The position numbers and the translations under genes are program-made. The notes below the pieces were generated by a model, which did no database searches, was not told where the DNA came from, and saw nothing but the letters and a program-made list of their open reading frames with translations. Below are positions 10,114-50,816 of a DNA stretch of 64,000 nt, piece after piece; position 1 is the stretch's first letter; every line of letters starts with the position of its first letter. The stretch covers positions 585,001 through 649,000 of the forward strand of contig JAFCIZ010000010.1 of NCBI GenBank assembly GCA_017871115.1, written 5' to 3'. The stretch is from Cunninghamella blakesleeana. Lineage: Eukaryota > Mucoromycota > Mucoromycetes > Mucorales > Cunninghamellaceae.

Positions 10114-11591
10114 TCATGATTTTTCATTGATTTGAGAAGTGACTAAATGCGAAGCTGAGACGTTATTACCATTATATATAAATGAAGAAGAAATTTGAGA
10201 ATCATTTTCATCAAAACCAGTAGGAGAATGTCGATGAGGAGGAGGAGCTGATCTAATTTGATTGGTCATAACATTATAATGGTATTGATCCTCTTCTACT
10301 TTTGACATATTAAATGGATCATTATTCGCATGAATATATTGGTGATTATCAATAATGGTACTACTTGAAGAATAATGATTTAATGATTTGAGTTTTTGCT
10401 GTTGTTCAGGAAAAGTGGATAAAGGATAGCCTAATTGTTGTTGATTTTGTTGGTACTGAGAATATAAATCAATTGAATTTCCTTTCATAAATTGTTTATG
10501 ATGATGGCCCGAGGCATTATTATTTTTGGAGGTTGGATGATGAGGTTGATAAACACGATTCCAGTGTTCTAATTGATAACCGAGAGGCTGATCATTTTGT
10601 GAACTAGGATTTGAAAATTGATCTGTTAGTTTTTGTGACGTATTTAACCCAGAATTCCCTGTGGTTTTATGATTGCCTGAAGAACCAAGTGATAATTGAC
10701 TAAATCCTTTTAGCATTTTAGTACTAGTTAAAAATAAAAATAAAGAATAAAAAATGACAAGTTAATAAGGTCATGGTCATTCTATATGTATATATGTTGC
10801 ATACTTTAGGAAAAGGGCAATAATAACAATAGTAGATGTCATAGGGCCAGTATATAAGGTTAAACAAGTTAAAACAATAGTAGATGAGAATTTTTGCATG
10901 ACGGTATATCTTGCAGCACCATAATAACCGATAAAAATCCCATATCCCCATAAACAGCTACAAGCGATGAAAATGATGATTTTCACCTTTTAGAAGAAAA
11001 AAAATGTAAAAAGATACAAATATATATATTAATGAATAAAATAGCTATATAAGTAAATAAATAATAGTGATAATAAAACCTTAATTACTATCATTGTGGC
11101 TGTTTACCTTTGTTGCTCCAAGTTTAATTTTAGCAATATTTTCTTGTCGATCCCCTTGAGCTAATAGATGTTTTTTTAACAATTTCAATAAACGAAGACC
11201 AGCTAATAAAATTGAAGTTCCCATTAAGAAATCATGACCCATCCATATAAAATATGTTGCATTTGTCCAATGGCTAGCGTTTTCAACATCACCTATTTCA
11301 GCATAATGGCCAGCTACAATAGAAACCGGCTAAAATAATACATATATGTATTTAATAATTATTTTACTTTATTTTATTTTTTTTCAATCTATATCTATAT
11401 TAATTTGTTTAAACTTACAAGGGTTATAATAATAGGAAAAGATAACATGATAAGACATGTTAAATCTAATATAAATTGAGAATCTATCCAACCTTTTGAA
11501 ATAGTTTTACTACTCTATTATACATATATAGATATAAATAATAATATTAATAAAAGATAATATACAAGAGGAGATGTTTATATACTTTCAT

Positions 11592-11626
<35 letters not shown>

Positions 11627-12389
11627 TTATATATCCTTACATTTGCCAATGTATGAAAAACACCGAAAAAATAGCTTGATAAAGACCCCATTGCAAATAA
11701 CCACGGTAATTCAAATAAAAAGGAACGTACAATACCATGTTTCCCAACATCTGAAAAGACTAAAACAATATCAATTACCCTTGCTATATAATATATGTAA
11801 AAAAAGAAGAATATAAAAGTGAGTATGTATAAATACCTACAATGATAATGATTTTTATTATTATCATTATTATTATAATCTATGTACTGATATTAAACAA
11901 GGCACCAAACAAACACATGCTTTCTATAGGTTTAGGTCTTGGTAATTTCCCTGAAAAATCAAATATTTGTTGATTTTTATATACTACTCTATGAAAAGTG
12001 TAGGCTAATACTATTAATTGTAAAAAAAAATAATAAGTAATTAAAAATAATAAAGTTAATATATTATCCTGTAGCCTTCCTATTATTTATAATTACTATT
12101 ACTATTATTAGTATCTTACATATGATTGCATTTAATATGGACCATATTAAATCGATGATATAAATTATTTTTAAGGCGTCCATTTCTACACAGTGAGATA
12201 TAGTTAACTATGTATATATATATAATAAGAAAAATAATAAAATAAATAAACAATCGATAAGAACTTGTATGTGGTTTTTCGTTTTTTTTTTTTAACATGA
12301 ATTACTCTAAAATCACAATGACAAGTATTGCCTTCACATAATCTCCAAAATGCTGGCTCATTAGGTGCAAGATGATTTGAATATTCCAT
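10114..12389 (-). CDS. R1: seven-TM receptor-like protein, type A
   Basis: Eight exons: complement(10114-10723, 10805-10986, 11108-11329, 11419-11514, 11641-11783, 11888-12010, 12120-12207, 12306-12389), all GT-AG, giving 515 aa. Exon 1 starts MEYSNHLAPNEPAFWRLC and ends CHCDFR; the fourth conserved Cys is in exon 2 (LTISHC). Hydrophobic segments follow the family plan (see R11). Exon 3 carries NQQIFDFSGK and RPKPIES, exon 5 carries W-x2-SQ, exon 7 carries the WGYGIF helix. The tail (last 204 residues) begins MLKGFSQLSLGSS. It has three tail motifs: QLEHWNR, QLGYPLSTFPEQ and SKVEEDQYHYNVMT, the last followed by a Pro/His patch. It is closest to R3. Both variable introns (at TK/VK and before the tail) are present. 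The function is unknown; a plasma-membrane sensor with a cytosolic signalling tail is my inference. Confidence 0.88.
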
Positions 12390-12908
12390 ATTATATTTTA
12401 TAATAGTAATAAAGTCATATATAAAGTAGTAAGGTAGTATAAAACAATAATATTGGTATTAATAATAATAATAAAAGTGAAAGAAAAAGGAAAGAAAAGA
12501 AAGCGATTATAATTAGTCTCTTTTTTTAAAAAAAAATAAAATCAAACTCCATTCGTTAATGAGATCGAATCGATCCTCCTCCCTTTTTTTATTATTATAT
12601 AAAAAAAAAATTTACGTATATATATACTTCTTATATTCTTAAATTTACTATTGTAATAAATAGGGTCTTACTTTCTCTTTAGGGTAATAATTCTGTAAAC
12701 TGATATCAGTTTACATGCTCCTTAAAAGAATTCCCAACTCTCACGGATAAACAAAAATCAAAACAATAACTTCCTCCTGAAAACCGGTAAAACACATAAA
12801 AGTAAAATTATATAAATAATAAAAATAACAAAATAAGTATAAAAACAACATATTACATCATTATATTATTATAGTTTATATATTCATTTTTATTTGATTT
12901 GATTTCAT

Positions 12909-12939
<31 letters not shown>

Positions 12940-13744
12940 ATAAAGTAATTTGAACACAAACTTTTATAGGAATATGTCAAAATAAATGAATGGCTAGACT
13001 TTTCATAGTTCCACATTTTTGAATCAATGAAAACCAACAAGAACCTTAAAAAATAAGTGCTATAAAAATGAAACTCCGGATTACACTGAAAAAAAAAAAA
13101 AAAATAATAATTTATTAACATGGTTAATAAAATAGAAATGCATATTGACATTCGATTATTATTATTTATTTATTTCTTTTTTTTGGTTGATTCATTTCTT
13201 TTTTCTTTTTTTTTTTTTTTTCTTTATATTTTCTGATAAAAAATATAAAAACAATTAAACTGTTTGGGAAAAAGATATCATTAGATTGCATAAGTTATAT
13301 ATATAAGGTTCTAACTCAGATGGCCCCTCCGCGCCTCTTTCTTCGTGTTGAATGATAACGTTAGAAATGAAAGAAACATTATGTTTTATCTATAAAAGGC
13401 AACCACCAAATCATTTATTTATAGTAAATAGGTTACATATGTTAAAAAGCATTTGGTTTCTGACGTTTAATATGGACCTATCATATTTAACTCCATGTCA
13501 TCGGACCATATAACTAATAAATAATGAAAACTTTATATAGAAATGGATATTCTTTAATTTCACCAGAATTTTCATTTATTTCATAAAAAAAAAAAATAAT
13601 CATAAAATCATAATACACACAGACAATTAAATAATAAAACTAAACTAATAAAATGGATATAAAAAAATGATATATATATATATATATATATATATAATGG
13701 GAATATAAATAAAAAAAACAAGTATAAAAAAGAATCATTATAAA
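12390..13744. other. R1-R2 spacer
   Basis: 1.35 kb upstream of R1 and downstream of R2, AT-rich with TA and T runs and no convincing gene. The block at about 12970-13090 (tttataggaatatgtcaaa ... aaaccttaaaaaa ... aaactccggattac) is similar to about 20308-20405 in the R3-R4 spacer, so the two spacers are duplicates. Confidence 0.5.
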
Positions 13745-14843
13745 TTAGTGAGATGACATTCTTAATTGACAGGTCATGGCATTATAATGGCGTTGCTCTT
13801 CTTCTATAGAAGAACTGCTACTATTCTTTCTATTATTCTGAGGATGATGCATTGATTGTAATTGAATAAAATATTCATCATTCTCTTTTTCTTCTTCCTC
13901 TTCATGTTGCTGATGCTGTGATTGTTGTTGAAATAAATAAGTAGATGAAGGTGATGGTAAACTATATATATATTGGTCAGATAGATCTTTGTCCTTTTTC
14001 TTTTTCTTATGCTTGTCTTTTTCATCAATTTTTTTTTCTTTTTTTTCTATTTCTTCTTCTTTTTGTTGCTGTTGTTGTAGACATGCTAACGTATCTTGCC
14101 TAGTCCATAAACATCCGGCTTGTAATTTATTAGAAAGGGTTAAAGAATAACGATGTGAATCATTATCAGTTGTGGTTGTATTAAATGAATCCTTTTGTAC
14201 TTGTTGTTGGCTTGTATAATTTGTAGTTTCTGAATAATCATCATCCATAGATCCTATTGATAAATTATTAAACCCATTCAATAACTTGACACTATATAAA
14301 ATTAATAAAAAAATCGTAAGTGTTTTGGTTTTTCTTTCATTCTGTCTTTTTATTTTATTCAAAAAGCTTACTTTAATATAATAGCAAACTCTATAACACA
14401 AGATGCCAAAGGGCCATTAAATAATACAATGGTTGATATGATCATTGTATAAGTTGTATCCAACATAATTTTATATCTTGTAGAGGCATATAACATTTTT
14501 ACAATACAATATCCCCATAGACATAGCCCACCTATGAGAATAATAATCTTGACCTATATAAAAATATATAATTAAATTGTATAAGCTAAAGCCTCATTTT
14601 CTTTATATATATTACATACTTTTGCTGCACCTAGTTTTATTTTGACAATATTTTCTCGCAAGTTTCCTTGTGTTAAAACATGACTTTTTAAAAGTCTTAT
14701 TAATCGTAACCCAGATATCAAAATTAAACTTCCAAGAATAAAATCAAAGGAACCCAATAAATAATATATTGTTTCTGTCCATTTTTTTGCTTTATCAATA
14801 TCACCTATTTGTGCATAATAACCTGCTGTAATAGATATAGGCT

Positions 14844-14883
<40 letters not shown>

Positions 14884-15800
14884 AAAAAAAAAAAAGATAA
14901 AGGATATATATATATATTAATAAAAAGAAACTTCACACCATTCCATTTCGATTATTTTAAAACCTACATTAACAGTGATAATAGGAAACGCAATAACAAT
15001 AAAACCAACAACATCTACTGTTGATTGAGAACCAACCCAGGAAGCATATAAATTTTTGCTACTCTATAATTAATAAATAAAGTTATTTTTTCAATAAAAC
15101 TGCTATTATTTTTATTATCATCATTATTATTTTACATTTGCTAATGTATGACAAACACCGAAAAAATAACATGATAAAGCCGTTAAACCAATTTGCCAAG
15201 GAATTTCAAATAAAAGTGTCCTTAGAATCGCATTTCTTCCAATATCCAAAATCAAAATACTTGCATTTACTACTCGAGCTTATAATAATAAATAAATAGA
15301 ATTTAGTCGAACGTTGCTATTTATTATTACAATTATTAAAAAGCTTACAAAGGTTAAAAAGTAATACAAATAGAACCAAACTTTCTATAGGTTTGGGGCG
15401 CGGAATTTTGCCAGAAAAGTCGAAAACAGGCAGCTTTTTTAAATAAACACGATCAATGAATATCCCAAAAGCTAAAAAAGGAAATGGTCATTAGTTCCAC
15501 CACTTTTTTTTAATATTTTATAGATTATTATTTATATACCGATAAGTGTGGCTAGTCCACTCCAAAAAATATCAATCATATTAATAATATATAATCCACG
15601 AGATTGTAAACAATGGGTGATTGTCATCTAAATAAATAAATAAAAAAAATACGTGTATATAAATACATTAAATGGATACCAATATTTTTCGATTTACAAG
15701 TATTAGTTTTGTTTACTCTAAAATCACAGTGGCAATGAGTTTGATCACATACTCTCCAAAAAATAGGATCTCCTGGTGATTGGCGATTTGAATATTCCAT
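13745..15800 (-). CDS. R2: seven-TM receptor-like protein, type B
   Basis: Eight exons: complement(13745-14291, 14372-14553, 14620-14841, 14968-15063, 15136-15278, 15349-15471, 15540-15627, 15717-15800), 494 aa. N terminus is MEYSNRQSPGDPIFWRVC then CHCDFR; exon 2 begins MTITHC. Exon 3 has type B features: AFGIFIDRVYLKKLPVFDFSG then RPKPIES. Exon 5 reads SWVGSQ. The tail begins LLNGFNNLSIGS and has LWTRQDTLACL as its tryptophan motif. A long Lys/Glu/Gln run follows (residues about 370-405), then the closing SIEEEQRHYNAMT, Arg-Met-Ser-Ser-His and stop. Type A's GYxLSTF motif is missing and replaced by a Ser/Pro stretch. Both variable introns are present. The 3' end lies in a region of long TA runs. 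Family and role as for R11. Confidence 0.88.
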
Positions 15801-16446
15801 AAATAATGTTTATTTTAATTTATTTATTAAGTTTGATGGTACATATATAATAATATTAAAGATAATATATTAAAAGATAGAAAGAAATTAAACAAAAAAA
15901 TAAAATAATAAAAAAAGAAAGAGAAAAAAAGAGAAAAAAGAAAAAAGGAAATGAAATGGAAAAGAAATTAGTAACCGTACTTATTATTTATTTATGAAAC
16001 AGGTATATTTGTGAATCAAAAAAAAAAAGATCAGAGTACATACCTACAAGGGGACACTAGGGAAAAAAAAAAGAGGGAGTTGGGGAGAGGTTGATCGAGG
16101 GGAATATTGATGAAAATGATGATTCATATTCACATCTGTCAAAAAAGGAAACTTCGTCTTATTTTCTCATCATTCATTCTTTTCTTCATATTTTTCTTTT
16201 TTATTACCATATCAAAAAAAGCATCGACTCTATTTCATTCTTATTTTTTTTTTTTTTAATTAACGATATTTCGAACCACACTTTTTTTCTTTTTGGTTTT
16301 GAAAGTCGTGAAATTAGAAAAGAAACCTTATTTTTTAATTTTTACACAACATTCGTGTCATGTTTTTTAATTTTATATCATTTTATTTGTTACGCACCCT
16401 TTGACCTCAAAATAAAATAATCATTTTTTATTTTTATCAACTAGTA

Positions 16447-16450
<4 letters not shown>

Positions 16451-16482
<32 letters not shown>
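16451..16482. repeat. (GATT)8 microsatellite
   Basis: Eight perfect tandem copies of GATT in the R2-R3 spacer. There is no coding context. Confidence 0.95.
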
Positions 16483-16802
16483 ATTTGCTTTATTATTTTT
16501 GAATAGATCAAGTTAAATAAAAATCATGCGCTAAACAAGTTCTAGGTAGGTATATATATATAAAATCAAGAAAAAAAAAAAGTGACAAGTTTTTTTTTTC
16601 TTTTTCTTTTTTTTTTTTGTCGCTCGTTTACTAACAACACGAAATGTCGGAAATCAAAAAATTATTGTGTAAATTTGATGAAGTGTTATGCATGCTGTTG
16701 ATGTGTGAATAAAAACTTTAATTCTTTTTTTTTTTTTTTTTTCATCTCTACCCCAATCTTCTTAATCAAATTGAAAATAAAAAAAATATGGCTTATTATA
16801 AT

Positions 16803-16886
16803 GATACGTCAATATATATTATTGGATGTCCCTTTACTCTATTCAATCAAATCAGGAGAACAATCATTTTACTTTTCTTGGGTTAA
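16803..16886 (+). pseudogene. Relic of the 3' end of the 8740-9423 gene
   Basis: Read in the frame ending at 16886, this gives DTSIYIIGCP..., then a diverged stretch, then LFLG-stop. The 8740-9423 gene ends DTFIFIIGCP... IIYLG-stop. At DNA level attattggatgtcc is identical and similarity continues past the stop (ggttaaaaaa, then atatacaag versus atatacag). No upstream part of the gene is present. It lies about 380 bp from the 3' end of R3, as the parent lies about 690 bp from the 3' end of R1. Confidence 0.7.
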
Positions 16887-17104
16887 AAAAGAAAAATATA
16901 CAAGACATAATAGATAAATAATAAAAAAATTCTACTTTTATTATTACAGAAGAGGAAAAGAGATTATTATCCCCTTTTTTTGGATTGTTGTAAAAATAAT
17001 AAATATTAAAGGAAAAGGAAAGAGAAAAAAAGAAGAAAAAAAAGCAAAGTATAATACGTAATAATATAATTAGTTAAAGGTATAAAGTTTATAAAATATG
17101 TAGA

Positions 17105-17157
<53 letters not shown>

Positions 17158-17220: not shown

Positions 17221-17253
<33 letters not shown>

Positions 17254-29804: not shown

Positions 29805-31972
29805 TTATGTAATAAAGAATGATATGAAGGTTCAAAGCATATATAACAATAATAATATCCAATATTAAAAAATAAGAAGAAGAAGAAGAAGAAGAAGAAA
29901 CGGACCAAAAATTGAAAAAAGGCTGGTTAAAAAAAAAAAAGAGTGGGGTAATAAAAATAAAAAAAAATAAAAAAAAAAGATCATTAGGAGAAAGGAAAGA
30001 AAAAGCGCGAAACTCAGGAGTGTTACATCTTTTTTTTAAGCTTCTTTTTTAGTTGCTGTCTAAAAAAAAAAAAAATAATAATAAGAGTAAAAAACAATAC
30101 AATAATAAATCGTATTTATTATTCAAAAAAAGAATAAAAACCTAAGGATATGTTTCTGCTTAAAAAAGGCTAGCTTGTATCCTTTTTTTTTTTTTATCTA
30201 TATGTTTATATTCGAAAATCTCTCTATATATATACATTCATTTGACAGTTCAGTACAAGAATTGCTTGTCATCCAAAATGATTTTGTCATATGCTTTTTT
30301 TTTTTGTGTGAAATTGTTTTTTTAATATTAAAAAACAGTTCTTTATCATTTCTATTTTTAACAAAAAAAAAGAAACACAAAGTGTAACCAGAGAGAATAT
30401 CATTTTACCTTTAATGAGAAATATTCTTTCTTTTTACATAAGCCTTTTTTCATAGATTTCTCTCCCTCTCCCCCTTGCCAGAGCCTCCTTCTTCGGCGAA
30501 CGACGGTAATATTCTTTTATTTGTTTGTTTATTCATGTATATAAAGAATAAATAATACTATATAAAAAAATGAAGATTATGTAAAAAAAAAAAAGTAAAA
30601 AGATATTCAGACTTATTTTTATAGACTGACTTGAAAAAATTAATAATAATATATTAATCCAAGTGCATACATACGTAACATTAATCAATCAAAAAAAAAA
30701 TCTTTTTTTTTTTTTTTAATTAAAATGAATGGTATATTTAAACATAAGAGATAAATGCTAAACCAAAAAAAGAATATATCGATTTTTTATACTCCACTTT
30801 TCAAATAAACTTTATTCTTTTTTAGATCTTGAATCACGTTTTTAAAATGGTTTATGCATTAATAAACTCGTCCACCGTTTGATGGCTCTTTTCTTAAAAA
30901 TGGTAAAAACCATTCATTACCTTTTTGTTAAGTTAGCGTTTAATTGATAATCTTGTTTATGCTCTTTTTTTTATTATTTATATTTGTTAGTAAAAAGTCT
31001 TTTCCTATATATCTTTTCCTTTTATTTTATAATTATGGAGAATAAAAAATCATTTGGTAATAGTATTCGGTTTATACCAACTAAATATCAATTGTACATC
31101 AATCCTAATATAAATGCGTCAGATTAAAAATAATGGGTGGTGGTGTAAATGATATAATGTTAATTCCCAAACAATATTCAAAAACATTTTATCAAAATCA
31201 GTATATACAGAGTTTTGTTTTTTCATCATTATAAATTGAATTGGTCTATAATCTGTAAAAAAAAAAAAAATAAAAAAAAAATTCAGCTTGAAACTTACTC
31301 TCAGTGTATGGCCTAATAAGAAAGACCATTTAAAGAATGAAGGGCTATTGATTATTCTTTCATTTAATCATTATATCTTCAAATTCATGAACATGAAATG
31401 TAAACTACATATAAAGAGTAATCATATTGTGATGGGCTACAATGTCAAGCTGATTGGTTTATTATTTATGGAAATAGAAAAGAACAATACGTTTTTTTAT
31501 TTTTATTTTTTTTTAAAAAACTATGCTGATACACTACGTAAGAACTAATAAATAAATAAATAAATGAAAGCTGAATAATGTGTGAGAAATTTCCTTTTAT
31601 GGGTTTCTCACGCACGTAACAGCCCTCTTTTTTTCATTAACAGACAAAAGAAAATAATCATAATAATAAATAAAACTAAGTGACCATTGACACTTAAAAA
31701 TATATTCAAATAAACGAATTCAATTACAGTATGGAAAGTTGTTTGTTATAGTTATATAGTAAATCCTAATTTTTCAGGTACACAACATCATCGGAGTTTC
31801 AAAAAAGAGATCAAAACTTTATGATTTTCCAGGAGTATCTAAAACAGAATATGTAAAATAATTAATTTTCCCCCCTTCTTTTTCACTCTTTCTTTTTTTT
31901 TTTTTTAATTTCCCTTCTTCTTTTATTTTAAATCACCTTTATATATTTACATATATACATATGAGCAATTAA
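29805..31972. promoter_or_regulatory. Central divergent spacer R6 / R7
   Basis: 2.17 kb from which R1-R6 are transcribed leftwards and R7-R11 rightwards. It has a CTT-type tract next to R6 and a short GC-richer patch at about 30465-30510 in an otherwise AT-rich stretch. The open frames at 30175-30387 and 31288-31548 show no family resemblance and lie in low-complexity sequence. A shared control region is possible by position only. Confidence 0.4.
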
Positions 31973-33839
31973 ATGGACCACTCAAATAAATTTACACCTG
32001 ATGAACCTTCATTTTGGCGTTTATGTAATGATAACTCTATTTGTCATTGTGATTACAGAGTATGTTGTTATTCAAATAGAGAAAGAACTATATATTAATA
32101 AAAACATATTATTTATCAGTCAGTATTTATTATTTTTATTATTCAAACTAGCTAACAATATATAATTGTGCAGAGACAAAAGGTTTAGTTGTTGTTAATA
32201 TAATTGATATTGTATGGTCGGCCATAGTAACAGTTGTTGGTGAATAGATAATATATAACTACATCATTAAAGATAATGTATGATTGTTTTTATAAAATAA
32301 TAAACTAATGTCATTTGTTTATTATTCTTGTTAGCTTTTGGTATTCTATATCATCGCGTTGCTTTTAAAAATCAGCAAATATTTGATACAACAGGTAGAT
32401 TTCCAAAACCTAAATCTATTGAAAGTATGGCCTTGTTTGGTGGATTCTTTAATCTATGTAAGTTTAATAATCATGGTTGTAATAGTGTATCCATTGTACA
32501 TAATTGGTAATTTTTTTTTCCATCTCCTTATTTTATAAATTTCATTTTAGTTAGACTTGTTCATTCTACTATCTTAGTCACCGATGTTATTAAAAATGGC
32601 ATTTTTCGTTCTTTTATATTTGAATTTTCATGGCAATTTGGTATTTGTGCATTAGCTTGTTACCTCTTCGGTGTGGTTCATACTTTAGCATGTGTAAGGG
32701 CGATAGATAAACTTGTGTATATTTAATAACTACTATTATTTAATATTCATTCTTTCATTTTTTTATTTTTATTTTTTAATAATGTTATTTACTATTTTAA
32801 TTTAATAGAGTAGCAAAGCTATTTATATGTCTTGGGTAAAATCGCAAATGCTTGTAGATATTGCTTGTATCATTATGGTCATATCTCCATTTATTGTTAT
32901 CATGGTAAGCAAAAAAAAAAAAAAAAGTATAATATATATGTAATTACTTGCATTAGTATTTACTTTTCTTTTTATATATGTTCATTATTATAGCCAATGT
33001 CAATTGTAGCTGGTTATTATGCACAAGTAGAAAATGTTGAAAAAGCGATTATTTGGACAAACATAATTTATTTTTTATGGCTTGCTTTTACCTTTTTGTT
33101 GGGGTGTATGGTCTTACTAGCAGGATTACGATTATTGAGATTATTAAAAAATCATTTATCAATACAAAAAAAAAAAAGATACTCAAAAGAAGAAAAAGAA
33201 GAAGAAAATCAACAAAAAATGAAATTAGGTGTTACCAAAGTAAAGTTGATTATTTCCATTGGTTGCACTTCTTTATGGGTTTATAGCATCATGATTGCTA
33301 TTTATATTACTTCAAGACATTCTGTCATGTCGGATACGACATCCACCATTGTCTTTACAGCATTTGCTTATTTGAATGGGCCATTGGCTTCTAATTTGAT
33401 TCAATTAGCTATTTTAATGGATTTAAAACTCTTCCGGGGATTAAGTTATTTATCCTTTACATCAACAGGGACGTCATCGTTTTCGACCCCAACAGGATCG
33501 GCTGCTTATAATAATAACTATAACACGGATACTTATATGAGTGAAACCGATCATCCTCATCATAACACAACTACGTATGATGGTATTGTTGAAGCAACAG
33601 ATGCTCCCGAGTTCATTTCAATGGATCAATGGGATCAAATTTTTAACAAAGAAAATAATATTGAATCATTACCTATTGCTCAACAACAACGACGGTCAAA
33701 ATTTTCATCGTTTGGTCATGTATTATCTACTTTATCTCCCATGCAACAAAAACAAAGTTACATCATGATGGATAATGGGGTCGATAATCGTTCATCTTCT
33801 TCTCTTTCTTATTCTAATTTAGAAAAGGGTAGATATTAA
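31973..33839 (+). CDS. R7: seven-TM receptor-like protein, plus-strand clade
   Basis: Six exons: 31973-32059, 32152-32239, 32335-32457, 32551-32693, 32809-32904, 32994-33839; 460 aa. It starts MDHSNKFTPDEPSFWRLC with a 5-residue gap before CHCDYR (exon 1 is 87 bp, one codon longer than most), then LTIYNC. Exon 3 reads AFGILYHRVAFKNQQIFDTT; the family's RPKPIES is KPKSIES here. Exon 5 has SWVKSQ. Neither variable intron is present: TM5 through tail is one 846-bp exon. A lysine/glutamate-rich loop follows TM5 (KKKRYSKEEKEEENQQK). The tail has GLSYLSFTSTGT, ISMDQWDQIF and SFGHVLSTLSPM, but no EEDQ-YN motif. Confidence 0.88.
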
Positions 33840-34645: not shown

Positions 34646-36031
34646 TTATGATGGTGATAATGAATTGGTAATATCATTTACAGTAGTTAGTGTATAATCT
34701 AACGCGGTTAGTACTTGTTCCATTTTATTTGCATTTCCTTTTACTTTTGATAAAATGTCATGGATGATATCGTTCAATTGATTTTGTTTATCACGAATTC
34801 TATTTTCCAATTGTAATGAATGACGAGCTGATGAAAGTCGATTAGTTACATTGGTATAAGTAAATGGCGCTGGAGAATAAAAGGAATAAAGATCATTTTG
34901 TAATTGTAAAAAATAATCCGCATTAGAATGAGGAGTATGAACATGGGTTGATTCTAATTCTGATTCTGATGATGAGTAGGTGAAAGAAAGAGATGCATGG
35001 TTAAGGTCATGATTGTTATTATTAATATTAGTGTTATAATTATTGTTATTGTTGGATTGTAAAGACGAATGTGGTGTAGGCTCATTGGTATGAATATAGG
35101 TATAGGTATGTGATGTTGGTGAAGGTGGCGAGTAAGTGGATAAATCTTCGTGTATTCTTAAAGAAAAACGGGGAGTAGAAGCGCTAGTATTTATAGGCGA
35201 TGTTGGTGATATTAAAGTTGGCGTTACTGTAGGTAAGTAAGAAAAAGTAGTAGGCAGTAAGGGAACTGCTGCTGTCGAGGAAATTGTTGGTGGTAATGAT
35301 AGTGTAGTCGATGGTGATATGTTTTTTAATGGTACTGTGTTTAAAAAAGAAGATGATGACGGTGATAAAGGTGTTGTAGCCAAAGAAGGTGTTATTTTTG
35401 GTAAATGTCTTTCTAGTAAAGATGGTGGTGAGGTGGAAGTAATTGTGAAATTAGTAGCAGTAGAAATATTAGTAGTAACTGTAGATGGTGAAGAAGAAGA
35501 AAGAGAAGAAAGAGTTGTCGTAGAATCAGATATCAGCGGATCATGGGCTTGATGTTTCCAACAATATAGTACTTCGACTCGGTCAGGATAATAGTAAACA
35601 TTATAATAAGCCTTACAACCTACTTTTTTAGATCCTCTTATTCGCCTTTTATTAGGTGGCGTTTTGATGTTTTTCTTTTTTCTTTGGCTTCCAGCATGAT
35701 CACATACGTATTTTCTGCAATATAAATATCCTTTCCTATATTTTGTCGATGTTTCTTCTTCTTCTTCTTCCTCTTCTTCAGCTATTATATTCCTATCTTT
35801 TATTCCTTTTTTGGATAGTGTTTTTTTTCCCTTCCCCTTCCCTTTTGCTTTTAATATATGAGGTGAGCTTTTACAATAATAGGTTCCTTTAAAATTAAAC
35901 TTGGCATGTTTAGAAGGTCCTTCGGTCTTAATCCAATGTTGACACTCTTGATCCTTTTTAAAAGTTCGACTGATTATTTCTGTTGGGTAATTAGGTCGGT
36001 TATTGCCTTGCTGTTTTGTAGGCGTTGTCAT
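34646..36031 (-). CDS. FAR1/WRKY-GCM-like zinc-finger protein
   Basis: A single-exon gene of 461 aa (MTTPTKQQGNN...). Residues 20-165 hold a metal-binding-type domain with C30, C53, C105, C110, H112, C139, C157, H160 and H163. Key segments are YLYCRKYVCDHAG, then KKVGCKAYYNV, then VLYCWKHQAHDP. The order Cys...Cys...GC-x-A...W-x-H-x2-H followed by Asp-Pro resembles FAR1-type and WRKY-GCM1 zinc-finger DNA-binding domains, common in Mutator-like transposases and in fungal proteins derived from them. Residues 165-395 are Ser/Thr/Pro/Asn-rich and disordered. Residues about 398-455 form a predicted amphipathic helix or coiled coil (LENRIRDKQNQLNDIIHDIL). No transposase catalytic domain follows, so I read it as a domesticated DNA-binding protein or transcription factor. 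It is antisense inside the plus-strand half of the receptor array. The domain call is by pattern only. Confidence 0.7.
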   Translation of the reverse strand: MTTPTKQQGNNRPNYPTEIISRTFKKDQECQHWIKTEGPSKHAKFNFKGTYYCKSSPHILKAKGKGKGKKTLSKKGIKDRNIIAEEEEEEEEETSTKYRKGYLYCRKYVCDHAGSQRKKKNIKTPPNKRRIRGSKKVGCKAYYNVYYYPDRVEVLYCWKHQAHDPLISDSTTTLSSLSSSSPSTVTTNISTATNFTITSTSPPSLLERHLPKITPSLATTPLSPSSSSFLNTVPLKNISPSTTLSLPPTISSTAAVPLLPTTFSYLPTVTPTLISPTSPINTSASTPRFSLRIHEDLSTYSPPSPTSHTYTYIHTNEPTPHSSLQSNNNNNYNTNINNNNHDLNHASLSFTYSSSESELESTHVHTPHSNADYFLQLQNDLYSFYSPAPFTYTNVTNRLSSARHSLQLENRIRDKQNQLNDIIHDILSKVKGNANKMEQVLTALDYTLTTVNDITNSLSPS

Positions 36032-36511
36032 TTTGTTTGATTATTATTATTTATATTTTTATAATTGTTTTTAAAAAAAATAAAATAAAAAAAGGGATTC
36101 CTTATATAGAATATGAATTGATTAAAAGAATGAATTTTATAATATTTTCCAATAATAATAAGGTGTGTAAATATATTTTATTATTACATGGAAAGATATG
36201 AAAAAGGTTCAATAAAGAGTAAAAAAATGAGAAGGAAAGAAAAAAAGGGTGAAATGATTTTTTCCTTCTTTAAATTTGTGATTTTTTTTTTAACCAGTCA
36301 AAATTTGAGGAGTCGCTCCCAAACAAAAAATATTTTTTTTAATATAAAAATATCTCATTCCTTTTTTAGCTTATGAACACAATTCGATTAAACTATTCTT
36401 ATTGAAAGTTGAAAAATAAGGTTGGTGTTTTAGTTGAATGGTTAATAGATCTATTTATTTTTTTAAAAAAAAAGTAAAAGAGAATGGTAGTCAATTCGAG
36501 AGTTATGCAAA

Positions 36512-39149: not shown

Positions 39150-39713
39150 ATGGATTACTCTAATAAGTTTACACCCAATGAGCCTTCGTTTTGGCGTTTA
39201 TGCGATGATAATATCTGTCACTGCGACTTTAGAGTATGTTTTTTAGAATTTTAAAGATATCATGTACTAGTATATGGATCAGTCATTTATTAACCTTTCT
39301 GTTTTACTATTATATACGATTGTTACTATTATTATCATTACTGTATTAGCTAACCATACACAACTGTGTAGAATCAAAAGCCTTATATATTATTAACATA
39401 GTAGATATTATTTGGTCAGCAGTAGCAACAGCTATCGGTAAATAGATAAAAATAAATAAATATATGACAAAACAGTTATTATTATAAGGACGCAGTGATT
39501 TTTATAAATATATATACAATCATTTTTTTGTTAGCTATTAGTGTATTATATTATCGTGTCGTTCATAAAAACCAACAAATATTTGATACAACCGATCGAT
39601 TTCCTAGACCTAAACCAATTGAAAGTATGTTTTTATGTGGTAGCTTGTTTAATATATGTAAGTTTAGCCATAACTATAATAACATCAATAATACAGCAGT
39701 ATATTAATTATAT

Positions 39714-39747
<34 letters not shown>

Positions 39748-41234
39748 TAATATCAACTTTTTTTGTTTCTTATTTTTATATTAGGTAGACTTATTCACTC
39801 TATTATCTTGGTCACAGATGTTGTTAAAAATGGTATTTTTAGATCTTTTATGTTTGAATTTTCGTGGCAATTTGGTATTACCGCTCTTGCTTGTTACCTT
39901 TTTGGTGTGGTTCATACTCTAGCATCTGTAAAATAAATAAATTTACTTATATGTATATCTATTTAAGAAATTGTTTTCTCATTTTTTTCTATTACTTTTC
40001 TTTTCTTTTATTTTAATAGAGTAGTAGAGCTATTTATATGTCTTGGGTAAAGTCACAAATGCTTGTAGATATAGCTTGTGTTTTTATGGTAGTCTCACCA
40101 TCTCTCACAATTGTAGTAAGTAATTACTTTTCACTTCATTTTTTTTTCGTTTATTTATTTATTTATTTATTTTTTGCCCCACTCCTTTTTTATTATTTAT
40201 TTGTTTATACGGTTGATCACTCAGTTTAAACTTTTATTTCCTTTTTCTTTTTTTTCGCTTTTAATATTTAGCCAATGTCAATTGTAACTGGCTATTATAC
40301 ACAAAAGGGGGATATTGAAAAGGCTGTTATTTGTACAAATATTATTTACTATCTATGGTTGTTTTTCACTTTTCTTTTGGGATGTATGGTCTTACTAGCT
40401 GGCTTACGATTATTGCGATTATTAAATACTCACTTACTGACAAAAAAAAATGTATGCCAAGAAAATATTGAAAAAATGAAATTAGGTACCACAAAAGTAA
40501 AACTGATTATTGGAATTGGATGCTTTTGTTTATGGGCTTTTAGCATCATGATTGCTATTTATGCTACATCAAGACATTCTGTAATGCTAGATTCTAAATT
40601 TACCATTATAATTACTGGTTTAGCTTTTTTCAATGGTCCTTTAGCTACTAGTTTAATTGAATTATCCGTATTAATGGATTTGAAAATATTTCGTGGATTA
40701 AGTAATTTATCTTTTGGAACTATGTTGGGATCATCTATCCATAATAATACAGCTAATAGTGGTGGCGATTTTAGTAGCTTGTCATTTTCAACTACTTTGG
40801 TAGCTTCAACTTGTGAAAATAAAATTAATACGACAAAAGATCGCGGGTCTCAGCTTTATGCAAAAAAATATTCTTGCGATAGGGGTGTTCGATCGACAAT
40901 TACTTCTGAAACTATTCAATTAGATACATGGAGTCAAACTTCTAACAAAAAAAATAACATTGTTAATTTAGAAAATGCAACAGTAAATTATAATAATAAT
41001 AATAATAATAGTAATAGCAACAGCAACAACAGTAATAATAACCCATTTACACTCTTACCTCCTCCTCCTATTGCTAAACGACAGCGACTTGATACTTCAA
41101 TATCTATTTCTTCGTCTATACAACAACAAAGCGATATCATGACGATAGATGGCGTTGATCGCCATCATCACCCACTTTCTTCCTTTTCTCAATCGAGTTT
41201 AGACAATGAAACATTATTATTACGGCCTGAATAA
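39150..41234 (+). CDS. R8: seven-TM receptor-like protein, plus-strand clade
   Basis: Six exons: 39150-39233, 39350-39437, 39535-39657, 39785-39927, 40020-40115, 40272-41234; 498 aa. It starts MDYSNKFTPNEPSFWRLC, then CHCDFR and LTIHNC. Exon 3 reads AISVLYYRVVHKNQQIFDTT and RPKPIES; exon 5 SWVKSQMLVDIAC. Neither variable intron is present. The tail has GLSNLSFGT, a Cys-containing TTLVASTCENKIN segment, IQLDTWSQ and an Asn/Ser tract (about residues 410-430). It then reads IAKRQRLDTSISISSSIQQQ and ends LLLRPE. The EEDQ-YN motif is absent. R9 is its nearest relative, matching through the tail; R8 keeps the two CGA codons that are TGA in R9. Confidence 0.9.
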
Positions 41235-42210: not shown

Positions 42211-44132
42211 ATGGAACACTCAAATATATTTACACCTAAAGAGCCATCATTTTGGCGCTTATGTGATGAATATAACAGATGTCACTGCGATTACAGAGTA
42301 TATTGATATTTGAAAAACAAAAAAAAAAAAAAAAGCAGAATTGATTTTATTAGTATAGTTAGCTATTTATTATATGTATATTTATAAATATATTCATTAG
42401 TCAACCTTATTGCTGTTATTATTATATATTAGGTAACAACACATAATTGTATAGAAGCAAATGATTTATATTTTGTAAACGTAGTTGATATTGTATTGTC
42501 AGCTATAGCTGCAGCTGTTGGTAAGTTAGTGAAATGATTAAATATACGATATTAGATAACAATTTTTTTATTATACAAGGATATTCGACTAATACCATTT
42601 ATTACTATTATTATTGATAGCTTTTGGTATTGTATATTTTCGTGTTTTTTATAAAAATCAACCAATATTTGATACAACTGATCGACTTCCTAGACCTAAA
42701 CCTGTTGAAAGTATGTTTTTATGCGGTGGCCTGTTTAATTTATGTAAGTTTATATAATATTTATAATAATAAGACATTATATATATATGAATTCTTTTCT
42801 TATCACTATTTCCATATTTCTATATTTCATATTAGTTAGACTTATTCATTCAACTATCTTAGTTACTGATATTGCTAAAAATGGTATCTTTAGATCGTTT
42901 ATGTTCGATTTTTCATGGCAATTTGGAATCATTGCTCTTGCTTGTTATCTTTTTGGTGTAGTTCATACTTTGGCAAACGTAAATTGATTGGATATATGGA
43001 TATATTTTATATTATTATTAGAGTATTGCTATAGCTATTAATTAAATCTCTTTCCCGTTCTTCATCATTACTATGATTTTTATTTTAATAGAGTAGTAGA
43101 GCTATTTATATTTCCTGGGTAAAATCGCAAATGATTGTCGATATAGCTTGTATTTTAATGGTCATCTCGCCATTTATCACCATCATAGTAAGTGATATTT
43201 TTTTTTCCTCCTTTTTCTTTTTTTTTTTTTTCTTTTTTTTTTTTTACCCCACTCCTTTTATAATTTTATTTGTTTGACAAACGCTCAATTTAAAGTTTTC
43301 TTTCTAAACTTTCTTTTTTCTTTTTTATTATTTATAGCCTATATCTATTTTAGCAGGATATTATATACAAGAGGAAGATATTGAAAAAGCTACTATTTGC
43401 ACAAATATTGTTTATTATCTATGGTCATTTTTTACTTTTCTTTTGGGGTGTATGGTATTATTAGCTGGTTTGCGATTATTACGAATATTAAATACTCATC
43501 TCTTTATAAAAAGTGGCAATTTATGCAGTGAAAATATTGAAAAAATGAAGTCTGGTGCTACCAAAGTAAAAATGATTATCAGCATTGGATGTATCTGCTT
43601 ATGGACATATACTTTCACTAATGGATTTTATGCTATAACAAGACATAATATCATGACAGACTCTAAGTTTTCTGTTATATTCACATCACTCGTTTTATTT
43701 AATGGTCCTTTGGCTACCTGTCTGATTGAATCAGCTGTGCTGATAAATTTGAAAATGTTTCGTGGATTTAGCCAGCTATCGTTTGGTACTATTTTAGAAT
43801 CAACAAGTCATAATACAAAACAAAGTAGTGGTGATGATTTTAATAATTTTTCCCTTTCAGCTACTTTGATAACTTCAACTTGCGAAAATATAATTAACAC
43901 AGCAAAAGACCGCAGGTCTCTGCTTTATGGAAATAAGTATTCTTGTGATAAAGGTACTCGATCGACAATTACTTCTGAAACTATTCAATTAGATACATGG
44001 AGTCAAGCTTATAACAAAGAAAAAAACATTATTGATTTAGAAGGTACAACAATAAATTATAATAGCAATATCAATAAAAATAATAGTAATTATTCATTTA
44101 AATTATTACTTTCTCCTTTTATTGCTCAATGA
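42211..44132 (+). CDS. R9: seven-TM receptor-like protein with shortened tail
   Basis: Six exons: 42211-42297, 42433-42520, 42621-42743, 42836-42978, 43092-43187, 43338-44132; 443 aa. It starts MEHSNIFTPKEPSFWRLC, has a 5-residue gap before CHCDYR (exon 1 is 87 bp), then VTTHNC. It is a close relative of R8: the tail shares ATLITSTCENIIN, STITSETIQLDTWSQ and the RRSLLY(G)NKYSCD-type segment. Differences suggest relaxed constraint. The TM1 Trp (DIVWSA in sisters) is Leu here. At 44130-44132 and 44136-44138 TGA stops replace the two CGA codons of R8, removing about 50 residues. Homology to R8's tail clearly continues in the DNA to about 44290 (ctttctcacttgagtttag...). The membrane part looks intact, so it may still fold. 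It could be a young truncated allele or a decaying copy. Confidence 0.85.
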
Positions 44133-45067
44133 CAATGACTTGATACTTCAATCTCTATTTCTTCATCTAACAACAATAACAAAAAATAATAATAATAATT
44201 AACGGTAACATATTATGTTGGTCATTACTCACCATTTACTCTTTCTCACTTGAGTTTAGAAAATGAAACGTTATTATTTAACCGCGAATGATCATTAGTA
44301 GTACCAACTAGGTACATAAAGGATATGGTTACCAAAATAAATAAGTAGGATAAAAGCAATTAAAAAATGAGTATAAATTATATTATACGTAAGAAAACAA
44401 ATGGAAATAAAAAGTACAAAAAAAAAGAAAGAAAGAAATCAACTACGATTAAAGTAGATATTGGAGCGATTTGTAAGGTGGGCGACTGGTTATAAAATTA
44501 CAACACGTAGTATAAATCAGCAATGACGTTTAATGGATAAAGTATTGGAAATAATAAAAATGAAATAAATATTAATTTATATTAAAATAAATATACACCA
44601 GCAATGGTATTTTTATAAAAAATTAATACAAATAGAGATGATTAATTTACTATGCTTAACAAGATTGCAAAGTTTTATATATTCTTTTTTTAAAAAAAAA
44701 CTATTAAAAAAATTCTAAAAGATTGTGCTCATTTTTTATTTAGAAAATAATAACAAATCTATATGATTTATTATTTATACATTTAATAAAAGTAATAATG
44801 AAATGGAAGAGAATGTAAAAAGAGTAGCATAACCACAAAGTTCAAGGGTGGAGTTTTAAAAAAAGTGGGCAACATTTAAAATGGTAATAACTGATTTTTT
44901 TATCTTTTCTTTTTTCTCCTTAAAAAATAAAACAATATTCACAACCAAGTAAAAACCATGTATAAGTATATATCTTCTTCTTTTTCTTCTTCTTCCCCTT
45001 CTTCTTCTTAGCATATCTCTTCTCCCATTTTACTCTCTTTTTATCTCAATTATATATGATCAATTAA
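44133..45067. other. R9-R10 spacer, first 160 bp a former coding tail
   Basis: Bases 44133 to about 44290 still align with the R8 tail after the premature stops. The rest is AT-rich spacer ending in a CTT-rich tract (about 44970-45010) before R10. No other gene. Confidence 0.6.
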
Positions 45068-46958
45068 ATGGATTATTCAAGCAAGTTTACACCTAATGAA
45101 CCTTCATTTTGGCGTTTATGTGATGACTATATTTGCCATTGCGATTATAGAGTATGGTTTCTAATTTATTAAATATAAATAATAACATATATTAATATAT
45201 AAATCAATTAATTACCAATTTCTCTATTTTATTATTGCTATTTTTGAATTAGCTAACAGTGAGTAATTGCGTAGAAGCAAAAGGTTTATATATTGTCAAC
45301 ATAGTTGATATTGTTTGGTCAGCAATAGCAACAGTAGTTGGTAAATAAATAGTACAAGTATATATATTACTTGAAATTTAATATTATACTAGAATTTTTA
45401 ATTAATAGCGTTTCTTTTTATCGTTATTATTATTGATAGCTTTTGGTATTTTATATTTTCGTATTTTTCATAGAAATCAACAAATATTCGATACGACTGG
45501 GCGATTTCCTAGACCAAAGCCTATTGAGAGTATGTTTTTATGTGGTGGGTTATTTAACCTATGTATGTTTAAATAATAATCATAATAATAAGGCATCGGA
45601 TGTGTGTTTATATACTACTAGTACTAAACTTTTTTTCTTTTTCTTTTTATCATTATTGTTATGTATTTCATATTAGTTAGACTTATTCATTCAATTATTT
45701 TGGTCACTGATGTTGTTAAAAATGGCATTTTTCGATCTTTTATGTTTGAATTCTCATGGCAGTTTGGAATCATTGCTCTAGCTTGTTATCTTTTTGGCGT
45801 GGTTCATACATTAGCGTGTGTAAGATAAATAGTTAAGGAGTCCACATATATATTTAATAAAACCACTCATACTTTTATTATTACTATCTATATAATGTAT
45901 TTAAATTTAATAGAGTAGCAAAACAATTTATATGTCTTGGGTAAAATCACAAATGATCGTTGACATAGCTTGTGTCTTTATGGTGGTTTTACCATCTGTT
46001 ACTATTTTGGTAAGTTTTCAATCTCTCCTTCTCTTTTCTACTTTCTTTCTTTCACTCCTATTTTTTTTTTTTTTTTCTGTTGCGATTTAATATTTATTTT
46101 TTTTGTTTTTTCATTTTCATATAGCCGATGACTATTGCAGCCGGATATTATGCAGAAATAGGGGATATTGGAAAGGCTATTATAATTACCAAAGCAATCT
46201 ATTATTTATGGCTGCTTTTCACCTTTCTTTTAGGATGTATGGTTTTATTGGCCGGTCGACGGTTATTAAAATTATTAAATAAACATTTATCAATGCAAAA
46301 AAATAACGAATCAGAAGAAATGAAACAAAAAATCAAAACAGGTGCTACCAAAGTAAAGATCATTATTGGTATTGGATGTACATGCTTATGGGCATTTAGT
46401 TTTATGGTGGCTCTTTACGCAACATCAAGACAGACAGTCATGTTGAATTCCAAATTTACTATTATTTTCACGGCAATGGTCTTCTTTAATGGCCCTTTGG
46501 CTACCTGTATGATTGAATTAGCCGTGTTAATAGATTTTAAAATATTTCGTGGATTAAGTCATCTTTCTTTTGGTACTACTTTAGGATCAAGAAGTCAAAA
46601 TAATAATAGTGATAATGTTAATAGTGATGGAGATAAAGAGTACAAGAATAGCACTATGAATAAAGGGGATGTATCTCAAAATAATACAACAATAACATCA
46701 CATGAATCGAATGATAGATTTGAATCAGTAAATCATTCTGAGACCATATCAGTAGATAAATGGAATCAATTTCATAACAATAATACTACGAATAATAATA
46801 ATAATAACAATATCGACTCTCGTATTTTCTCGTCACCCCTTGCTCATCAACAACACCTACAGCAATCCCAATTGGGATATTCATTATCTGCCTTTTCTTC
46901 TGTTCAACAACAACAACAAATATACTCACCCACTTGCACCCCTCATTCTAGTTCATAA
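45068..46958 (+). CDS. R10: seven-TM receptor-like protein, plus-strand clade
   Basis: Six exons: 45068-45151, 45253-45340, 45440-45562, 45677-45819, 45914-46009, 46125-46958; 455 aa. It starts MDYSSKFTPNEPSFWRLC, then CHCDYR and LTVSNC. Exon 3 reads AFGILYFRIFHRNQQIFDTT and RPKPIES; exon 5 SWVKSQMIVDIAC. TM5 ends LLAGRRLLKLL (Arg for the usual Leu). Neither variable intron is present. The tail has GLSHLSFGTTLGS, ISVDKWNQFHN, an Asn tract and QLGYSLSAFSSVQ. The GY-LS motif is kept, while the EEDQ-YN motif is absent. The frame ends in a Ser-rich segment before TA/GT repeats. Confidence 0.9.
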
Positions 46959-47021
46959 AAGGATAGGCATTACAATAATGGCATGGAGTAAATATCATCA
47001 TCAAGGCAATTTTATCATATT

Positions 47022-47064
<43 letters not shown>

Positions 47065-48620
47065 ATTAATTTATTCTTTATATTCACTTTAAATGATAAT
47101 AATTTAATTTATTTACTAATTTTTACTACATATTCCTTTATATTAAATAAAATATATAATACGTATAATAATGAAAACAATCGTATAAAATTAAAAACCT
47201 AGATCATTCCGATTTTTCTAAAAAAAAAGAAAAAAAAGAGATTTGCATAAAAATACCGACATTTCCTTTTTTTTTTTTTTTGGTATACTGATATAAAAGG
47301 AAATCATGCTTCGCAATTAAATAATTTGAAACGAAAAAAAAAAAAAAGATCGTTGTCATAAGATCAAATGAAGCATATCATAGTGTAACAAATAAAAAAA
47401 AATTACTTTGTATTTTCTTCATGACAAGTATATCGTATACGTATGTTCCCTCCCTCTTTTGCTTTTTTTTATATTTTACCTATCGCCTTTTTAAAGACAA
47501 TAGATAATAAGAACGATCATCGTTTTTTAATGTATTGAGTTTTAAAAACTTGATTATTTTTTTTTTTTTTAAAAAAAGGGTTACATAAGAAAAGATTAAG
47601 TTTACTACTATATTAAAGAGGATAAATATATAAATCCCATTTTTTTTTTTTTTTTTAGAATGCAGATAATTATTTTTTTCCCATTCTATTTTTTTTTTTT
47701 TTTTTATAAACACAACCTTTTTAAAAATAATAATATTTATATGTTAATAAGCTATATAAGATCAGAATTTACTTTAAAGTGATTTTTTAATTTTATATTT
47801 TTTATGTAGTCCGATAAATGGTAGGACAACATATAGTCTAAAATCACAATATTTACGTGAATGAATGTGATTTTATATATATTAACATCATAAATTATAT
47901 AATTCTTCTCTGTGTTATTCCCTGGGTTTATCATTCAATAATTAATATGGTATTTATAAAAATCATACAAAACTTTTCAATTGAATATGATTCTTATATA
48001 TATATATATATATATATGTCATATAATTACGATCGGAGTTGACTTGGTTTGTAATTAAGGAGTACAAGGGTTTATAATTGACTTGTCATCTTTTTTTTAT
48101 CTATTTTTCGAAGGAGATAGAGGAGGGAAAAAAAACGGATGAATATACATCAATATGTGTATATATAAGGGGAAGGAAAATCATTACCACCGTCATGATA
48201 ATAGTCTCAATTATGATAATAGTATATATATTTATATATGTATATTTATATATATATATATATATTCATAGTAGAGTGGATCTACTATTGGATTTTAAAA
48301 AAGTAAAAAAGAGATATGGGGAGAATAAAGTTAAAGAAAGGTGACTCTTTGAAAGCGAATTGGTCAATGTCAGTTTTTTAAAGTTTACGCGGTGTTTCAA
48401 TCATGGCCAGTTTAGTCAATTTTTTTTATTTAAAAAAAAATGCAAACTCCTTTCTTTAAATTAACTTTTTTTTTTTTTTTTCATTAGCTTTTCTCTTTCT
48501 CTCTTTAATTTTTTTTTTTTTTCTCTCTCTCTCTTTTTCTTTTGTATTTAATATCTTTCACTTTTTTATTATTGTAAATCTATTTTTGCAAATCTATTTT
48601 AATTTATATATGTTTTATTA
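46959..48620. other. R10-R11 spacer with (GT)n
   Basis: 1.66 kb. TA then GT microsatellite at 47022-47064, poly-T tracts, and a CTCTCT-type pyrimidine tract (about 48490-48542) before R11. Short frames at 46840-47202, 47480-47713 and 47857-48344 are simple-sequence artefacts or low-complexity. Confidence 0.5.
47038..47064. repeat. (GT)n microsatellite
   Basis: About 13 GT units immediately after a TA run, downstream of R10. A similar TA-GT pair sits downstream of R3 (17108-17170). Confidence 0.9.
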
Positions 48621-50816
48621 ATGGAATATTCAAATATTTTAACACCAAATGAACCAACGTTTTGGAGATTATGTCAAGGCACTACCTGTCATTGTGATTT
48701 TAGAGTAAATATATATGCTAATAATATATTTATTAGTAAAAGTGTAAAAAAGAAGGAGCAGTTTACTAATAGATATATAATCAACTCTTTTAACAATAAT
48801 AATAGTTAACTATTAGTAATTGTGAAGAATCGAGTGCATTACATATTATTAATACTATTGATATAGCATGGTCAGGCATCACTTCAGTTGTTGGTAATAT
48901 ATATATGAACCATCTTTTATTTTATTTCATTATTCAATATAAATGTATACTAACAAAATCACTATTATCATTTTATTTTTATTTATTTTTTTTGTACAGT
49001 GTTTGGTATTCTATATTTTCGTGTTGTTCATAGAAATCAACAAATATTTGATTTTAGTGGTCGATTTCCTAGACCTAAACCTATAGAAAGTATGTCTGTC
49101 TTTTGCATGTTATTTAATCTATGTAAGTAAATCATATTCCTGATAAATGTGCTACTACTAGTATATTTATGTATTCTTTTAATACTAATAACAATTATTG
49201 CTTTTATGTATAATTTTTATTTTACTAGTTCGTATGATTCACGCTATTGTCTTGGTCACAGATGTTGCAAAAAGCGCTATTTTTCGATCTTTTCTATTTG
49301 AATTCCCATGGTCATTTGGCATAACTGCACTTGCCTGTTATCTTTTTGGTGTTGTGCATACTTTATCCAGTGTAAAAAACAAAATAAGCTAGAATTATAA
49401 TAATAATATAAGCATTGAATTTTTAAATTTTTAATAATTTTCATTTTATTTTAACCTTTTGTAAATATATATACTTATATTTAATTTAATAGAGCAGTAG
49501 CACAATTTATAAGTCTTGGGTAAAATCACAATTAATTGTTGATTTATTTTGTACAGCCATGGTTGTTTTACCATTTATCACAATCAATGTAAGTCATTAT
49601 CATCGCTTCTCTCTCCCTTTTTTTAATATGTAGATACAACTCCTTTTTATACCCTTTTATTATGCATACATACACCAATGTAAATCGATATCTTATCTAA
49701 TCTTATTTTATTTTTGTCCTTTTATTGTTTATAAAAAAAACAACAACGTGTTTATGAATAACTTTATTAGCCTCTAGCTATAGTAGCGGGGTATTATGCA
49801 GAAAAAGGTGACGTTAACAAGGCATGGATATGGACTGAAACTATTTATTATTTATGGCTATTTTATACTTTTACCCTGGGAAGCATGGTTCTTTTTGCGG
49901 GATTGAGGTTGGTTAATTTATTAAAGAAACATTTAGCTATGCAATTGGCTTCTGGGAAAGATAATGTTGCCAAAATCCAATTAGGCACCACCAAAGTTAA
50001 AATCATTATTGGGATTGCTTGCTTTTGTTTATGGGCCTTTAGTCTTATGATTGCTATTTATATCTCTTCAAGGTATTATGTTATGATCAATCCAATTTTT
50101 ACAGTTATTTTGGCTGCTCTTGCTATTTTTAATGGACCATTGGCTAGCTCTATCATTGAATTTGCTTTGCTTATCAAGTACGTATTATATTTATATATAA
50201 TAATAATAAGCAAAACAGATTTATATAAAAAAATAATAAAGAAAGTGTAACTCAATATCTTTTTTTATTCTTTTATCTTCATAGTTTAAATACAATGAAT
50301 GGTCTCAGCAATATTTCCTTTGGTCCTTCTTCTGAACCTCATTTTGCTATTGATCATTCAGCAACCTCCAATTCTAATGATATCTCTACAGCTATTGAAT
50401 CGCAAGCCTTGACAAGTGGTTCCACCTCAATTAAAATGGATCTATGGAATAGATACACAACTCCCAAAGAAGAAGTGACAGTACAAGAAATAGAACATCC
50501 TAATCCGTTCCTAGTTGAAAATAATTCATTGGAAAATATAAACAGTAGTAACAACAATACTAGTAATGATACGTCGTTTCACAATCAATTTGGCTATTCT
50601 TTATCAGCTTTTAATATACAAAAAGACATCATGCCTTATTCGACAGCTCAGCATGATAATCAACATCAAACTATGTCAAGGTTAGAAGAAGATCAATTAT
50701 GTTATAATGCAATGACTTATCATCATATGAGAAAACCTCCTCCTTCCCCTCCATCAAATAATAATAATAACAATAACAATAACAATAATAATAATAATAA
50801 TAATTTGTATTATTAA
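48621..50816 (+). CDS. R11: seven-TM receptor-like protein, best template of the family
   Basis: Seven exons: 48621-48704, 48806-48893, 49000-49122, 49229-49371, 49493-49588, 49771-50177, 50285-50816; 490 aa. Residues 1-35 are the Cys segment (FWRLC-x4-CHCDFR-x5-C; C18, C23, C25, C34). Hydrophobic segments are at about 43-65, 88-110, 126-144, 159-185, 202-228, 254-277 and 287-312, so seven. Conserved loop words are NQQIFDFSGRFPRPKPIES, SWVKSQ, GLRL after TM5, GTTKVKIII before TM6 and FNGPLASSIIE in TM7. The tail begins MNGLSNISFG and has IKMDLWNR, QFGYSLSAF, SRLEEDQLCYNAMT, a Pro patch and a final Asn run. The pre-tail phase-2 intron is present, the TK/VK intron absent, as in R6. An extracellular N terminus and cytosolic tail are inferred from topology. 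The family is unassigned; GPCR-like or distantly TOM1/THH1-like. Confidence 0.9.

Follow-up and report, generated by a model that had tools for sequence, protein, structure and literature searches.

A divergent tandem array of putative GPCR-type receptor genes in the fungal genus Cunninghamella

Seventeen classes of fungal G-protein-coupled receptors (GPCRs) have been defined across 1357 species from known queries and Pfam domains, and machine learning has added further candidates, mainly DUF6534 proteins, a group of unclassified seven-transmembrane (7TM) proteins of Agaricomycotina that are proposed to be GPCRs from prediction (PMC12842992). The same source describes the Pth11-like GPCRs as an abundant, lineage-restricted fungal 7TM family reported only from Pezizomycotina. 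Closer to the present subject, class C GPCRs of Rhizopus microsporus, 7TM proteins described as unique to Mucoromycotina, have been proposed as trisporic acid receptors (PMC5705715); Rhizopus oryzae is credited with no fungus-specific GPCRs except nutrient-sensing ones and with one Glutamate-type receptor (PMC3251606); and Mucor circinelloides possesses twelve G-alpha genes, for which the authors call for receptor identification (PMC6936849). Receptors are also discussed in PMC6733946 and PMC10406608. Here, we describe eleven genes (A-K) in a 64,000-nucleotide window, the whole stretch analysed (contig JAFCIZ010000010.1, positions 585,001 to 649,000, of assembly GCA_017871115.1, entered as Cunninghamella blakesleeana), whose products are probably receptors at the cell surface, from a GPCR-type family for which no Pfam model appeared among the matches listed. 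A keyword search of open-licence papers, by words and not by sequences, returned no description of this family or of a GPCR array in Mucorales.

The layout given in a preliminary description made from the sequence alone holds in full: spliced alignment yielded a model for each of the eleven genes, six on the minus strand (A-F) and five on the plus strand (G-K), which radiate from a 2.2-kb spacer and together span exactly 10114-50816, or about 41 kb (Table 1). The models, obtained by aligning the region with a draft protein of gene K using a method that allows only GT-AG introns and does not cross stop codons, are uninterrupted in 11/11 cases, in keeping with the complete and frame-consistent exon chains claimed. 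Their 67 introns measure 66-182 bases, and exons 1-5 are matched in size throughout (84/87, 88, 123/127, 143/139, and 96 bases). Core identity is 45-81% across all 55 pairs of window genes, while the synonymous divergence (dS) is 0.60-1.41 and the nonsynonymous-to-synonymous ratio (dN/dS) 0.11-0.26 in 11 of the 55 pairs (ten within subclades, plus F-K). Given these identities and ratios, the array is not a product of chance; its genes are old enough to have decayed, yet have not, and they are under purifying selection. Three further family genes (N1, N2, and N3) lie past the window on the same contig (657518-667492), and with them the array comprises 14 genes over 72 kb, with a stretch of Tc1/mariner-like transposase open reading frames (ORFs) separating K from N1.

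The preliminary description had proposed structure prediction as a check on the 7TM assignment, and a 7TM bundle was indeed obtained. AlphaFold models of two relatives, one of which (P0016) is 95% identical to gene D, display a bundle of GPCR topology, and the PDB matches listed for the two are GPCRs in 200 of 200 rows, with no transporter among them; class A receptors matched by structure include cannabinoid CB2, P2Y14, MRGPRD, and S1P1. On these models, the predicted seven-helix fold of the array proteins matches that of GPCRs. By sequence, neither Pfam, NCBIfam, nor the PDB pointed to a well-characterised transporter family, the other outcome anticipated as a possible objection. Pfam scans covered four of the eleven window proteins at E 10 and 71 relatives at E 1, with 25 of 41 families listed for the latter; within that scope, there was no match to 7tm_1, 7tm_3, Ste2, Ste3, Git3, or other Pfam classes of fungal GPCRs. 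The nearest transporter-type match, Ferric_reduct (3 of 71 relatives, best E 0.0029), was taken as chance, as were other weak Pfam matches in one to three of the 71 relatives. NCBIfam gave no match for five relatives, and sequence searches of the PDB returned only an unrelated best match (E 0.26) for the 314-residue core of K and, for a profile of the 71 relatives, a best E of 0.13, mostly tail matches to unrelated proteins. No match to a 147-residue part was found in phage records. The 7tm_3 matches of the genome fall at four loci outside the receptor family, and Dicty_CAR matched nothing anywhere in the genome, which is not evidence of absence. As judged from sequence, the family has no Pfam model among the matches listed, and the named relatives found are all Mucoromycotina. 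Like the R. microsporus candidates (PMC5705715), it is a 7TM family known here from Mucoromycotina, but within the scope scanned it is not class C by the 7tm_3 profile; like the Pth11-like GPCRs, it is an abundant and apparently lineage-restricted fungal 7TM family, with no Pth11-like match among the families listed; and it belongs to another subphylum than the DUF6534 proteins, which are not among the matches listed.

The N-terminal Cys segment noted earlier takes the form C-x4-5-C-H-C-D-[FY]-R-x5-C in 11/11 window proteins, and the seven hydrophobic segments recur without a gapped row in any helix, all seven helices being gap-free in 14/14 array proteins when helix bounds are taken from the P0016 model. 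Across the 14 proteins, invariant residues occupy 57 of the first 322 positions, among them the four N-terminal Cys residues and the adjacent His and Asp. Mean Lys plus Arg counts over the same 14 proteins are 4.1 in the first intracellular loop (ICL1), 2.9 in the inner part of transmembrane helix 5 (TM5), and 4.3 in that of TM6, whereas the three extracellular loops (ECLs) have means of 0.9, 0.0, and 1.1; such basic segments on the predicted cytoplasmic side fit an arrangement with the N terminus outside and the C terminus inside. The disordered tails are as long as claimed and low in complexity, and those of A-F and K (7/11) carry the motif EE[DE]QxxYN, which recurs beyond the window in C5_1 among the 17 other genome loci and, in a near version recognised by eye, in N3; G-J have neither this motif nor an intron preceding the tail. 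In the mechanism we propose, the four-Cys cap would lie outside the cell, a small cue, environmental or self-made, would bind the outer half of the bundle, and one or more G-alpha subunits would be engaged by ICL1, ICL2, and the basic ends of TM5 and TM6 on the cytoplasmic side. The tail and its motif may serve a regulatory role. The chief difference among the paralogues would lie in the cue that each recognises; G-J, which lack the motif, would differ in regulation too.

Several observations weigh against the receptor reading. The best Foldseek E values are only 1.8e-3 and 5.6e-3 and the TM-scores by query length 0.27-0.41, so that the fold is shared without close kinship, and a shared fold, here a modelled one, does not show G-protein coupling. 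Two hallmarks of class A GPCRs, a DRY-like motif closing TM3 and an NPxxY motif within TM7, are both absent from 14/14 array proteins. Although conservation is lower in the outer halves of the helices than in the inner halves (0.50 versus 0.58, p 0.016 by column shuffling), the contrast is weak and a hint only, given that it appears in just five of seven helices (sign-flip p 0.078) and is reversed in TM1 and TM4. Nor does dN/dS, in the 11 of 55 pairs measured, give any sign of diversifying selection. Animal class A GPCRs resemble the array family in predicted structure and not in sequence; the family differs further in its four-Cys N-terminal cap and in an ECL2 of about two residues in the P0016 model. 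An opsin-like identity receives no backing either: opsin-like 7TM proteins have a conserved lysine in TM7, which is missing from 11 of the 14 array proteins and occurs once each in H, I, and J.

These differences lend some substance to the view that the proteins have a GPCR fold and act without G-protein signalling, whether as transporters, lipid-handling proteins, or G-protein-independent receptors. No GPCR family appears among the sequence matches, the class A motifs are lacking, function is not shown by a shared fold, and weak Ferric_reduct matches occur in a few relatives; on the other side stand the structural matches listed, all GPCRs and none a transporter, the basic cytoplasmic segments, and the many G-alpha loci in the genome (about 13). 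We regard this alternative as unlikely and retain the GPCR-type reading as the probable one.

The family extends beyond the array. In the 32-Mb genome (12 contigs), at least 28 loci were found, 11 in the window and 17 elsewhere (four on C3, three each on the window's own contig and on C8, two each on C1 and C5, and one each on C2, C4, and C7), although the first exon is unresolved in 7 of the 17 additional models (C8_1-3, C3_1, C3_4, C4_1, and C7_1) and doubtful in C1_2. The C8 loci form a tandem trio (L036-L037; C8:458555-470593) whose members are mutually alike, sit on a long branch, and carry YHCDPR in their N-terminal motif in place of the CHCDFR or CHCDYR of the array. Gene K is 98% identical over 417 residues to a Cunninghamella echinulata protein of set BJ944, A, D, H, I, and J are 94-96% identical to others of that set, and a second C. 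echinulata assembly contains proteins 84-94% identical to A, B, F, G, J, and K; we take the genome to belong to C. echinulata or a close sibling species. Of three protein searches, the one based on aligned trimmed cores alone reached far outside Cunninghamella and its closest relatives, finding at least 87 proteins at E <= 0.01; the named sources among the matches listed are Mucorales and Umbelopsis, which does not demonstrate absence from Mortierellomycota or Glomeromycota. Some matches are nameless, and one of the 87 (P0064, Phycomyces) is entered in UniRef under a name starting 'G-protein coupled rec'.

Two trees were built: one of 89 rows (11 window genes, the 17 other genome loci, and 61 of at least 99 proteins found, leaving out C. 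echinulata near-copies and fragments) and one of 34 rows, from which long or distant rows were left out (among them C2_1, the three C8 genes, C5_2, C1_2, C4_1, C7_1, the C3 genes, and P0082). In the smaller tree, 23 Cunninghamella sequences form one clade (99/94), which adjoins single sequences of the same branch from two Absidia species, Halteromyces, and Gongronella. Within this clade, A-F group with C1_1 and three C. blakesleeana proteins (98/96), G-J and N1 form a separate group (98/98), and K pairs with a C. blakesleeana protein (100/100) and is placed beside the right-arm group at 86/79. As A-F and G-J/N1 are distinct, the left arm expanded separately from most of the right. The claim of a lineage-specific tandem expansion is therefore supported as duplication within Cunninghamella, a genus of Mucorales. 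C. blakesleeana counterparts exist for F, K, C5_1, N2, and N3, as well as for the common ancestor of B, D, and E. The 89-row tree includes eight C. blakesleeana rows, and none of these is a counterpart specific to G-J or A/C; this is weak evidence, as the number of proteins found is a lower bound.

This history bears on what the receptors would detect. They might respond to signals made by the fungi themselves, such as trisporoids or other mating or volatile pheromones, rather than to outside chemicals; the spread of the family over Mucorales and Umbelopsis, with one branch holding Mucor, Rhizopus, Phycomyces, Blakeslea, and Choanephora sequences, is compatible with that view, whereas expansion of the array branch in a single genus is unlike a shared pheromone system and makes it rather improbable. 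That the expansion was neutral, leaving redundant copies without distinct roles that were kept by drift or dosage, is very unlikely, for despite the tandem layout beside a Tc1/mariner-like island and the missing tail motif of G-J, 11/11 genes are uninterrupted at the dS and dN/dS given above and several lineages are retained in C. blakesleeana. Expansion in one genus, together with copies kept under purifying selection, fits a chemosensor repertoire, for which we infer the array to be a candidate.

The upstream regions hold a further peculiarity. In 11/11 window genes and N1, an ATG lies within 80 bases upstream of the start codon (Table 1), which alone is not rare, since some ATG occurs in 71% of 1264 intergenic 80-mers (overlapping, both strands). 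More telling are the sequence context, ATATATG being present in the 80 bases upstream of 8/11 genes and in 2.5% of those 80-mers, and the ATG-poor upstream regions of two small control sets: among nine other family members with a mapped start, one has an upstream ATG (C1_2) and none ATATATG, and the six of 13 G-alpha loci with an MGC start found have no upstream ATG. The window genes, being paralogues, do not count as independent cases in the way that a binomial test would assume. In 9/11 genes, the frame begun by the ATG is 2-6 codons long, and that of K ends in a stop overlapping the start codon; a stop immediately abuts the start codon in G, I, J, and N1; I has one frame of 16 codons plus another that is longer and open; and the frame in H enters the gene out of frame. 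Only A-rich words are shared as promoter words by the 11 upstream regions. On this evidence, the ATGs are candidate upstream ORFs (uORFs), and uORF control special to the array is possible.

A bolder proposal may be entertained tentatively, namely that Mucoromycotina have in this family a further GPCR class, so far unclassified and not covered by the 17-class scheme, which would supply many of the missing receptors for the large G-alpha sets of these fungi as well as a diversified chemosensor array in Cunninghamella, each gene's translation being gated by a short uORF. Because a sequence had to contain a listed GPCR Pfam domain to be kept in the known classes (PMC12842992, section 2.1), a family lacking any Pfam model would fall outside them, and it may be among the 141,666 unclassified 7TM proteins of that study.

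Table 1. Coordinates in the window of the array genes, the spacer, and the intervening ORF (aa, amino acids; b, bases).
Feature	Position	Strand	Size	Basis	Upstream ATG, first base
Receptor gene A	12389-10114	minus	515 aa, 8 exons	spliced model	12418
Receptor gene B	15800-13745	minus	494 aa, 8 exons	spliced model	15844
Receptor gene C	19526-17264	minus	517 aa, 8 exons	spliced model	19551
Receptor gene D	22984-20869	minus	460 aa, 8 exons	spliced model	23046
Receptor gene E	26587-24416	minus	470 aa, 8 exons	spliced model	26624
Receptor gene F	29804-27718	minus	487 aa, 7 exons	spliced model	29840
Spacer between two arms	29805-31972	no strand	2168 b	bounded by start codons of F and G	
Receptor gene G	31973-33839	plus	460 aa, 6 exons	spliced model	31961
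Unrelated ORF between G and H	34649-36040	minus	464 aa		
Receptor gene H	39150-41234	plus	498 aa, 6 exons	spliced model	39139
Receptor gene I	42211-44132	plus	443 aa, 6 exons	spliced model	42160
Receptor gene J	45068-46958	plus	455 aa, 6 exons	spliced model	45056
Receptor gene K	48621-50816	plus	490 aa, 7 exons	spliced model	48610

The ORF between G and H, the sole non-family ORF of at least 150 residues inside the array, has a weak FAR1 DNA-binding match that falls short of the curated cut-off. The transposase run beyond K (window 55858-62865 and L032 930-5259) contains several different ORFs, some of them repeated, with Pfam checked for one. A GCN1-like HEAT protein and a THUMP-domain protein occupy the left flank (window 1299-9423), and ORFs that by eye resemble cytochrome P450 the right (L034 922-2527).

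In its predicted fold, the family resembles animal receptors for smells and hormones, and it is nameless in the protein-family libraries searched. A Mucorales-wide family with a GPCR fold offers a concrete list of receptors for testing against G-alpha proteins, and ligand screening could draw on the array of this soil mould as a natural set of Cunninghamella paralogues; the array genes are candidate chemical sensors in fungi whose sensors are mostly unknown.
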